Of a stretch of DNA of 55,543 nt, positions 2,430 through 34,259 are shown one piece after another. The first letter of the stretch is position 1, and every line of letters starts with the position of its first letter. This DNA is from Acidobacteriota bacterium (GTDB lineage Bacteria; Acidobacteriota; Terriglobia; Terriglobales; Acidobacteriaceae), in the NCBI GenBank assembly GCA_003225075.1, contig QIAP01000043.1, forward strand, positions 1 through 55,543. Direction: 5' to 3'. The notes under the pieces were generated by a model that saw only the letters and a list, made by a program, of their open reading frames with translations, searched no databases and was not told where the DNA came from. The position numbers and the translations under genes were made by a program.

Positions 2430-4226
2430 CTAGGATTTCAAAGCAGCGAACAGACTGTTGAGGCTCTCCTTCGCATCGCCGAATAGCATCATGCACTTAG
2501 GGTCGTAGTAGAGCTCGTTATCAACTCCGGAAAAGCCTGGGCGGAGGCTACGCTTGAGGACGATGATCGACTTGGCGCGGTCGACTTCCAAGATCGGCAT
2601 GCCGTAGAGCGGACTACTCTTGTTGTTCTTTGCGGCCGGGTTCGTCACATCGTTCGCGCCGACAACCAAGGCAATATCTGCCTCTGGGAAGTACGGGTTG
2701 ATTTGTTCCATCGTGTACAGCTGGTCGTAGGGTATGTTTGCCTCGGCGAGCAGGACGTTCATGTGGCCAGGCATGCGGCCGGCGACCGGGTGAATGGCGT
2801 ATTTCACATCTATGCCGCGCGTGGACAGCAGCTTTGCCAGTTCACCGACACCGTGCTGAGCTTGTGCGACAGCCATCCCATAACCCGGGACGATGATGAC
2901 CGACCTGACGCTGTCGAACAGAACAGTCAGCTCTTCAGGAGTGATGCTGCGGACGGTCCCCATCGCCTCGGCTGCCGCACCGACGTCCTCTTTCTTGATC
3001 TTGCCGAAGGCGCCAAATAGAACGTTCATCGCGGAACGATTCATGGCTCTGCACATCAGCAACGAGAGAAGGAAGCCGGAAGTGCCATCGAGCGAGCCTG
3101 TAATGATCTGGATCTTGTTCATCAACACGAAGCCCATGGAGGCGTCTGCGAGACCACCGTAGGAGTTCAGCAAGGCTATGACGACGGGCATATCGGCCGC
3201 CCCGATGGGAATGACCAGTAGAAAGCCAAACAGTAAAGCCAGACCGACTATCACAAAGAACAGCGTACTGGTCGCCGGTACAAAGACCAGGTAGATGAGC
3301 GTTCCCACCACCGTGGCCAGCAATGTGATGTTGAAAACGTTCTGTCCCCGGTAGGTGATGGGAGATCCCGGGAGGAGTCCCTGCAGTTTCCCCGCGGCCA
3401 TGAGGCTGCCCGTGAAGGTCAGGCTACCGATGACAACCTCCAGACCAATCGTGGTCATCTTCACGCGATCGAGCCCGACAGCGACGTGGCGGACGTACTC
3501 GGAAATTCCTATTAGGCTGGCCGCCAAGGCTCCGAGAGAATGCGAAAGAGCAGTCCTTTGCGGGACAGCCGTCATCGGTATCCGCAGTCCCATGGCGCCC
3601 CCCACGATGCTGCCAGTGAGGAGACCCACGGTGATCCAGCGGTAGTTGACAATTTCAGGGTGGAAGAGCGTGCCCGTGATGGCCATCAGCATGCCGAGTG
3701 CGGCTAGGAGCATACCCTTCCTGGCGTACTTGGGTGAACTCAGACCTTTCAGCCCCAGGATGAACAGAACCGCCGACAGGATGTAGAAGTAGCGCAACGC
3801 CGTCGCGGCGAAAACGGCACCAGACGACTCTGTGTCAGTCCCCGATCGCCTGAACCCATGCATGAGCACCAGCAAAACAATGATGAGAACTGGGAGGGCG
3901 AGCAATAGTTTTGGATTGAACCGGCGATGTTGAATGCCAAACTCTTCCCGCTTCTTGAACATCTTTAGCATCCGGTCGGTAATCAGAAAGCCACCGAACA
4001 CGTTTGTCGAAGAACAGATCACCGCCAGGAAGCCGAGGGTAGTGCTCAACCGGCTGTAATTGGCCCCCGCGACGACCAGTGAACCGATGAGCGAGATCCC
4101 TGAAATTGCATTGGTTGCGGACATCAGGGGTGTGTGCAGCAACGGTGGTACTCGTGTGATGACGTGATAGCCGAGAAAGCCCGCCAGGATGAAGATGTAA
4201 AGCCCGATCTCGAGTTCAGTTGTCAT
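2430..4226 (-). CDS. pntB: NAD(P) transhydrogenase, fused alpha2 (PntAB) and beta (PntB) subunit
   Basis: 598 residues. The first ~95 residues carry the membrane helices of the short alpha2 subunit, recognisable by LAGFLGYHVITRVPPLLHTPLMSATNAIS. They run on without a break into a full beta subunit: about nine further membrane helices, then the soluble NADP(H) domain with GYGMAVAQAQ and a KRS...GFSG segment near the C-terminus. The complete enzyme couples proton flow to hydride transfer from NADH to NADP+. The two parts are separate genes in the three-subunit form. ATG 4226 is preferred over TTG 4235 because GAAGG lies upstream; pntA ends 23 bases earlier. The complex is complete, as both nucleotide-binding domains are encoded. 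Confidence 0.9.
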   Translation of the reverse strand: MTTELEIGLYIFILAGFLGYHVITRVPPLLHTPLMSATNAISGISLIGSLVVAGANYSRLSTTLGFLAVICSSTNVFGGFLITDRMLKMFKKREEFGIQHRRFNPKLLLALPVLIIVLLVLMHGFRRSGTDTESSGAVFAATALRYFYILSAVLFILGLKGLSSPKYARKGMLLAALGMLMAITGTLFHPEIVNYRWITVGLLTGSIVGGAMGLRIPMTAVPQRTALSHSLGALAASLIGISEYVRHVAVGLDRVKMTTIGLEVVIGSLTFTGSLMAAGKLQGLLPGSPITYRGQNVFNITLLATVVGTLIYLVFVPATSTLFFVIVGLALLFGFLLVIPIGAADMPVVIALLNSYGGLADASMGFVLMNKIQIITGSLDGTSGFLLSLLMCRAMNRSAMNVLFGAFGKIKKEDVGAAAEAMGTVRSITPEELTVLFDSVRSVIIVPGYGMAVAQAQHGVGELAKLLSTRGIDVKYAIHPVAGRMPGHMNVLLAEANIPYDQLYTMEQINPYFPEADIALVVGANDVTNPAAKNNKSSPLYGMPILEVDRAKSIIVLKRSLRPGFSGVDNELYYDPKCMMLFGDAKESLNSLFAALKS

Positions 4227-33660: not shown

Positions 33661-33687
33661 TTTGAGGTCACAAATTGTGACCTCAAA
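33661..33687. promoter_or_regulatory. Perfect 13+1+13 palindrome before the ORF6N gene (probable operator)
   Basis: Arms TTTGAGGTCACAA and TTGTGACCTCAAA are exact inverted copies around one A. The site ends 20 bases before the TTG start of the ORF6N gene. A second palindrome of the same length lies inside that gene and differs by one symmetric base pair. Confidence 0.8.
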
Positions 33688-33707
33688 ACGGCATACTGAG
33701 GTATTCG

Positions 33708-34259
33708 TTGCCTCCGATGTCAAAACGCCAATCAAGACTCACAGTGAGCGTGGAATCGCGGATTTTAGTCCTTCGCCATCATAAGGTCATCCTCGATACG
33801 GACCTCGCTGAACTTTATGGTGTTCCTGTAAGACATCTGAATCAACAGGTCAAACGCAACGTCGAGCGGTTCCCCTCCGACTTCACGTTTCAACTCACGG
33901 CCAAAGAGGATACCGCTTTGAGATCACAATTTGTGATCTCAAAAAAAGGCCGCGGTGGGCGCCGTTATTCCCCCTATGCCTTTACCGAACACGGCGCGAT
34001 CATGGCGGCTACTGTTCTCAACTCCAAGCGAGCCATTCAGATGAGTGTTTTTGTGGTTCGCGCCTTCGTGAGGTTGCGCGAGATGTTGTCCGCCAACCGG
34101 CAGCTCGCGGCCAAAATAGAGGAGTTGGACCATCGTCTGGGAACTCATGACGACGCGATTCAGGAACTCATGGACGCAATTAAAGAGCTCATGATTCCTG
34201 AAGAAAAATCGCGACATAAAATCGGCTTCCAGCTTCCTTCGGCGAAACGAGAGCCGTGA
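33708..34259 (+). CDS. ORF6N-domain DNA-binding protein
   Basis: 183 residues. The N-terminal ORF6N (KilA-N-related) domain reads ILVLRHHKVILDTDLAELYGVPVRHLNQQVKRNVERFPSDFTFQLT...GGRRYSPYAFTEHGAIMAATVLNS. After it come AIQMSVFVVRAFVRLREML and a coiled coil (NRQLAAKIEELDHRLGTHDDAIQELMDAIKELM) for oligomerisation. Such proteins occur in phages and as scattered chromosomal cargo and are thought to be regulators. TTG 33708 is favoured by GAGG six bases upstream; ATG 33717 is the alternative. A palindrome precedes it and a matching one covers codons 70-79. It sits between the two mutase subunit genes. Confidence 0.88.
   Translation: MPPMSKRQSRLTVSVESRILVLRHHKVILDTDLAELYGVPVRHLNQQVKRNVERFPSDFTFQLTAKEDTALRSQFVISKKGRGGRRYSPYAFTEHGAIMAATVLNSKRAIQMSVFVVRAFVRLREMLSANRQLAAKIEELDHRLGTHDDAIQELMDAIKELMIPEEKSRHKIGFQLPSAKREP
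33917..33943. promoter_or_regulatory. Perfect 13+1+13 palindrome inside the ORF6N gene
   Basis: Arms TTTGAGATCACAA and TTGTGATCTCAAA around one T, 256 bases after the first palindrome. It matches the upstream site at 12 of 13 arm positions, and the changed base is changed in both arms, so symmetry is kept. It encodes A-L-R-S-Q-F-V-I-S-K of the protein. Confidence 0.8.

Follow-up and report, generated by a model that had tools for sequence, protein, structure and literature searches.

Operators that lie inside coding sequence are known, among them lac O2 in lacZ and the internal gal operator, and they sometimes cooperate with an operator at the promoter. A different arrangement has been described for BstA, a prophage protein of abortive infection with a putative, KilA-N-like DNA-binding domain. 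Within the bstA locus itself there is a short self-immunity element of DNA, aba, that is specific to the cognate BstA variant (PMC8585504). This element overlaps the start of bstA and bears terminal direct CCCGCC repeats, at -28 and +28. Phage anti-repressors form a third point of reference, with the families ORF6N (PF10543), KilA-N (PF04383), and the PHROG anti-repressor. PADLOC includes both ORF6N (as PDC-S05) and KilA-N (as PDC-S22) among its phage defence candidates, and PDC-S05 has been counted in rumen genomes (PMC13356809).

The locus described here is an ORF6N-domain gene of an Acidobacteriota bacterium, located in a window of 55,543 nucleotides (the whole stretch of DNA that was analysed). 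With lac O2 and the internal gal operator it shares a putative operator placed in coding sequence. Unlike those operators, the ORF6N site is placed within the gene of the regulator itself, occupies the same place in genes from different phyla, co-evolves with the protein, and survives a change of reading frame. With BstA–aba it has in common, by sequence only, a DNA element in the protein's own locus that is cognate to the protein variant, as seen in the correspondence of helix and site set out below. In contrast to aba, the ORF6N element is a palindrome at about codon 70, and the bstA gene with 300 bp added contains no palindrome with arms over 7. In addition, no homology between BstA and ORF6N was detected (hhalign probability 0.2), in what is a weak test with a single BstA sequence, and no BstA model was among the PADLOC matches of the window protein. 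Since the bstA region has no comparable palindrome and BstA no detected homology, ORF6N may work like BstA–aba and is not counted as a member of that system. A search by titles and abstracts, in which subscription journals were thinly covered, found no description of an operator within ORF6N, KilA-N, or anti-repressor genes. Similarly, the papers found there that mention ORF6N had nothing on such a site in their titles and the start of their abstracts, and BstA was the only relevant precedent in this search.

The ORF6N gene and its two palindromes

The gene extends from 33717 to 34259 on the + strand, with a start at ATG 33717 and an alternative start at TTG 33708, and is flanked by a methylmalonyl-CoA mutase gene (PF01642) on one side and a TIM-barrel gene on the other. 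Its product belongs to ORF6N (E 2e-30; 105.3 bits against a Pfam gathering score of 27.8) and resembles phage anti-repressor families. It is also a PDC-S05 candidate by annotation, matching three PADLOC models of that system (best E 3e-51). No other ORF6N gene was found in the 4.79-Mb genome. The AlphaFold model of the protein has a mean pLDDT of 76, which rises to about 95 in a helix formed by residues 37–46 (33828–33857, + strand; residue numbering counts from window position 33720). A Foldseek comparison with the PDB gave nothing below E 0.3, the weak matches including MarR- and MerR-like proteins, and a sequence search of the PDB gave no relative of the protein. The viral contigs searched contained no relative of the query. 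Neither a promoter-like sequence on the gene's strand nor a terminator was found.

Two inverted repeats of the form 13+1+13 accompany this gene. The upstream palindrome, at 33661–33687 (TTTGAGGTCACAA-A-TTGTGACCTCAAA, with no strand assigned), lies in the gap 5' of the gene; it starts 34 bp past the methylmalonyl-CoA mutase stop codon and ends 29 bp before ATG 33717. The intragenic palindrome, at 33917–33943 (TTTGAGATCACAA-T-TTGTGATCTCAAA, likewise with no strand), codes for LRSQFVISK, and the two centres are 256 bp apart. A sequence-only reading of the window had called both repeats perfect, with one difference mirrored in the two arms, and had placed the inner one at codons 70–79. Comparison of the arms agrees with the first statement: the arms are 100% complementary in both repeats, and the upstream and inner arms differ only at the seventh base from the centre (G versus A), with the change mirrored. 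The central base is A in the upstream palindrome and T in the inner one. The codon numbers hold when counted from TTG 33708, and become 67–76 from ATG 33717. When the window was shuffled 100 times with its dinucleotides preserved, no match to the palindromes arose, and the 4.79-Mb genome, searched with up to 3 mismatches, contained none beyond these two.

Symmetry of the inner site in homologous genes

A scan of a genome collection, in which the genomes searched were drawn samples, yielded 79 loci. By record titles, 37 belong to Acidobacteria and the remaining ones to Proteobacteria, Nitrospirae, Planctomycetes, Bacteroidetes, Zixibacteria, and others. These 79 loci were found partly via a peptide pattern that the palindrome itself encodes; the loci added later, to this first set and as a second set, came from the Pfam model alone. 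When the genes were aligned on the codon that holds the palindrome centre, at least 10 of 13 pairs were present in 79 of 80 loci (window included), the exception being L031 with 8. The mean was 12.29 of 13 pairs, against 4.72 after codon shuffling within the same peptides, and in 78 of the 80 loci at most 1 in 1000 shuffles equalled the observed pairing. Pairing falls off at the edge of the site, from 74/80 at position 13 to 30/80 at position 14 and 23/80 at position 15. With the Pfam-only loci added, at least 10 of 12 pairs were found at the same place of the gene in 117 of 119 rows, which contain repeats (105 distinct loci) and for which the count was taken at whichever of several adjacent codon positions paired best. 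The two exceptions were L031, whose upstream site is perfect, and L097 (6 pairs).

The variable positions change in a compensated manner. Position 4 is paired in 80/80 loci, as GC in 47, AT in 30, and CG in 3, and position 7 is GC in 53 loci, AT in 21, and unpaired in 6. Owing to this compensation, the synonymous choice between AGG and AGA in the left arm largely predicts which amino acid, Thr or Ile, is encoded by the right arm. In a control count over the 79 loci, 53 palindromes with 12/12 pairs were present in 39.6 kb of ORF6N genes versus 6 in 316.5 kb of sequence more than 700 bp away, and 2 of these 6 resemble ORF6N-type sites.

The second set comprised 81 ORF6N domains from Bacteroidota, the class of genome G265, further sampled genomes, plasmids, and one phage record. 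A first pass in the expected frame gave at least 10 of 12 pairs in 58 of 81 domains, and this number reached 70 of 81 when any frame was considered. The automatic choice of sites went wrong in a few rows: it misplaced L190 and the second row of L207, settled in L219 on the first of a pair of in-gene sites, and gave one site to both L224 rows. Twelve domains have the palindrome, with 9 or more of its 12 pairs, in another reading frame, where peptides of the ELVANCDRF type (VANCDHL-like) replace LRSQIATS. Symmetry is thus retained although the encoded peptide is entirely different, which indicates that selection acts on the DNA.

These results bear on the view that a conserved peptide, or chance, would account for the palindrome. 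The peptide LRSQIATS is indeed conserved in the main subfamily, but when codons are shuffled with the peptides unchanged 4.7 of 13 pairs form, and the palindrome persists in another frame, where it encodes VANCDHL-type peptides; this view was rejected, and its probability is negligible. Selection on symmetry, which the sequence-only reading had preferred to chance, is strongly supported by the codon shuffles, the compensated pairs, and the helix–site correspondence. The same reading had proposed an alignment of homologues, with matching, co-varying palindromes both within the gene and at the promoter. This expectation stood for the inner position, and the upstream site was present only in part of the loci; the outcome named there as a refutation, homologues that lack the palindrome, did not arise. 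The idea that the palindrome travels with the gene is borne out insofar as the coding sequence includes the site.

Several genes depart from the arrangement of the window. L066 (around 3205–3250) has two sites in frame, separated by 36 bp, that share their core but not their outer arms, which looks like a duplication within the gene, and L219 has a similar in-gene pair. A Segatella ORF6N gene (L202:1423-2379) has a second translated site (ELVANCDQL) near the N-terminus, 222 bp before the inner one. On a Parabacteroides plasmid (L203:1489-3222), three tandem ORF6N genes precede leuS, and the first differs from the others in helix and site. A Treponema plasmid (L199:1465-2361) carries its ORF6N gene between the genes for the methyltransferase and the specificity subunit of a restriction system.

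Correspondence between helix residues and site letters

The letters of the inner site follow particular residues of the protein. Mutual information, computed with the site-encoded stretch excluded, peaks for positions 4–5 at columns 42, 39, 43, and 38; the peak for position 7 is at column 38. These predictive residues fall outside the palindrome-encoded stretch and within the AlphaFold helix 37–46, the predicted recognition helix. A rule by which residues 39 and 42 predict positions 4–5 of the gene's own inner site was built on the first 105 genes, where it holds in 207/208 half-sites. Tested on 68 later genes, it held in 119/136 half-sites (100/102 where residue 42 is E or Q), which gives 326/344 in all. 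The parts of the rule that concern K42, R42, and L42 are based on few first-set genes.

Across 173 domains, R39 together with E42 is accompanied by CG at positions 5 and 4 in 70/70 cases, Q42 without R39 by CA in both arms in 70/72, and R39 together with Q42 by TG in 8/8. Domains with K42 follow the rule only partly (TC in 5/8), and the fit is likewise partial for R42, where 3/12 have GC in both arms and the remaining 9 have it in a single arm. Similarly, K38 is associated with G at position 7 of both arms in 104/105 cases; R38 is looser at this position and tolerates G, with A/A in 30/53. Residue 82, in the loop after the palindrome that is presumed to form a wing, corresponds to position 10, with G for R82 in 131/132 and A for K82 in 18/19. 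In the window these presumed wing residues are R82 and Y83 (33963–33968, + strand), which track positions 10 and 8, respectively.

The independence of these associations was tested on a quick tree, for which the columns of the helix and of the site had been removed from the alignment. On this tree there are at least 34 changes of E42 and at least 34 of the CG site, and 7/7 well-supported independent pairs were concordant (p 0.016). For R38 and position 7, about 5/6 were concordant with a median p of 0.06, and values below 0.05 were not reached on supported branches. The tree gave no support to R45 as a partner of position 10, and this residue was dropped as the reader of that position in favour of residue 82.

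The specificity residues of the window protein are R38, H39, and Q42. H39 and Q42 predict TCAC, which is present in both window sites, and R38 predicts A at position 7, where the inner site has A and the upstream site G. With this helix code it is very likely that the ORF6N protein binds the site inside its own gene, and the earlier proposal of such recognition thereby gains strong support.

The code also bears on explanations based on nucleic acid structure. An mRNA hairpin, acting for instance in translational control, would suit the strong predicted RNA folding of both window sites (z -8.0 and -6.7). However, G-U mismatches are not preferred over A-C mismatches, either in the inner sites (7 vs 16), in the other near-gene sites (16 vs 23), or in upstream sites chosen regardless of those letters (14 vs 17); moreover, the site letters track the recognition helix and no Rfam family was matched, and we consider a hairpin function highly improbable. 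A DNA cruciform had been considered since upstream and inner sites can differ while each is still symmetric (10 of 29 loci with both sites symmetric). It was set aside, given that positions 3 and 6 are invariant in 48 upstream sites and that the letters track the helix.

Upstream copies, autoregulation and self-recognition

The inner site is near-universal and constant, and the upstream site is optional. An upstream site was found in 48 of 105 distinct loci, 35 of these 234–262 bp from the inner one; among loci with at least 700 bp of upstream sequence, 45/100 have such a copy and 55/100 have none. Of the 78 rows of the second set, 11 have an upstream copy, a count that includes in-gene and neighbour-gene copies, and 67 have none. 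The upstream sites obey the helix rule in 72/96 half-sites (shuffles: mean 39.1, maximum 63), with agreement favoured by a first selection made partly by likeness to the inner site. After reselection with positions 2, 3, 6, 9, 11, and 12 only, which gave 46 sites, the rule holds in 68/92 half-sites and fails in 24/92 (5000 shuffles: mean 39.4, maximum 61), and the upstream core equals the inner core in 22/46 (shuffles: mean 8.2, maximum 18). Agreement at position 7, in 63/86, was attained by some shuffles (mean 43.9, maximum 65).

DNA looping over the 256 bases between the two window sites had also been suggested. Because 67/78 rows of the second set have no upstream site, looping cannot be the general mechanism, and the lack of an upstream copy at many loci likewise means that classical promoter repression is not general. 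Another genome of the collection (G010:C87, L100) has a broken ORF6N gene downstream of a methylmalonyl-CoA mutase gene, as in the window, and three palindromes remain at that locus.

From the sequence comparisons, the palindrome is conserved, selection acts at the level of the DNA, and protein and site are linked by a code. The most likely function would be autoregulation through an operator inside the gene, and we regard this as probable. The gene product would be a winged-helix DNA-binding protein, probably dimeric, whose recognition helix would read positions 4, 5, and 7 of the half-site and whose presumed wing would read positions 8–10. The operator would be the palindrome within the coding sequence, some 210 bp past the start codon, and in many Acidobacteria, the window genome among them, a second copy of this site is present shortly before the gene. 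The protein would occupy the intragenic operator, form a roadblock there, and probably repress the transcription of its own gene, helped by the upstream copy where there is one. With regulator and operator on one stretch of DNA, a horizontally spread gene would keep its own regulation anywhere.

The main alternative is self-recognition of the BstA type, in which the protein would act on foreign or replicating DNA and the in-gene site would mark the carrier, titrating or silencing the cognate protein. The presence of a cognate element within the locus of BstA, a protein with a KilA-N-like domain (PMC8585504), is in line with this, as is the status of both ORF6N and KilA-N as PADLOC defence candidates. 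The tandem paralogues of the Parabacteroides plasmid, with differing sites that each fit their own helix, point the same way, and a single intragenic site suits a self-mark as well as a roadblock. However, aba consists of direct CCCGCC repeats and not of a palindrome, and the alignment of one BstA sequence with ORF6N, weak as this test is, gave no homology. In addition, many ORF6N genes are chromosomal, that of the window sitting between metabolic genes, and upstream copies with matching letters suit regulation. Self-recognition is therefore rather unlikely in our view, and autoregulation remains the preferred reading for ORF6N.

KilA-N (PF04383) genes, taken for comparison, have a different intragenic palindrome, TTTAA.....CGAATTCG.....TTAAA, whose letters co-vary strongly (e.g., L287 around 1684, among L263-L309). 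In 27 KilA-N genes from Bacteroidota, the class of G265, and phages, a mean of 13.67 of 15 pairs was found; these genes were chosen by a peptide motif that overlaps the encoded stretch, and the sample favours intact sites. Position 9 is CG in 13 of the 27, TA in 13, and GC in 1, and in 21 of them the palindrome lies 200–219 bp past the first in-frame ATG. Among 45 KilA-N loci, 23 beat all 20 codon shuffles, and some of the others had a wrongly chosen open frame. None of the 27 genes has a second site within up to 900 bp on each side, and the 9,159 bp of the satellite phage Javan588 contain just one site, inside the KilA-N gene; both observations would also suit self-recognition. Javan97 (15,677 bp) has one perfect site and a weak one (22/30 letters) between genes, at L314:12432-12461. 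The DNA of one KilA-N gene gave no match in E. coli.

It is possible, and we propose it tentatively, that the bacterial KilA-N superfamily (ORF6N and KilA-N) has one general plan, by which each gene contains the recognition site of its own protein and forms a self-addressed unit that would serve the self-recognition of mobile genes. If this is true, BstA–aba would be one case of a much wider rule, in which protein and mark evolve as one piece of DNA, and autoregulation would be linked with self-recognition by mobile genes. One segment of the gene would be read twice: it codes for a peptide, and the encoded protein would bind it. Matched changes of protein and site are seen in relatives across many bacterial phyla, and with so many variants a protein–DNA recognition code becomes readable from sequence and testable letter by letter. 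This would also provide a concrete handle on a large and little-studied family of listed phage defence candidates.

A further alternative is that the palindromes serve to move or exchange the gene, as sites of recombination or mobility. The distribution of the family is patchy: in 249 genomes of the same order, ORF6N is present in 36, the patterned site in 39, and both in 33, with 0 sites for a reversed-pattern control in the same genomes. The three genomes with ORF6N and no patterned site are accounted for by two fragments (G196 and G214) and by G037, whose site falls outside the pattern. A site with no ORF6N match occurs in 6 of the 249 genomes, and no adjacent ORF6N gene was seen at the 14 orphan-site loci inspected, which would fit mobility. 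However, the helix code is explained by reading of the site and does not require cutting inside the gene. To our knowledge, ORF6N has no recombinase motif, and a recombination or mobility role appears very unlikely. The orphan sites may be scars of lost genes, and their letters, judged by eye, match the resident protein in only some cases. In two other genomes (L169 and L174, around 2013 in each), orphan sites lie beside genes that resemble the methylmalonyl-CoA mutase neighbourhood of the window.
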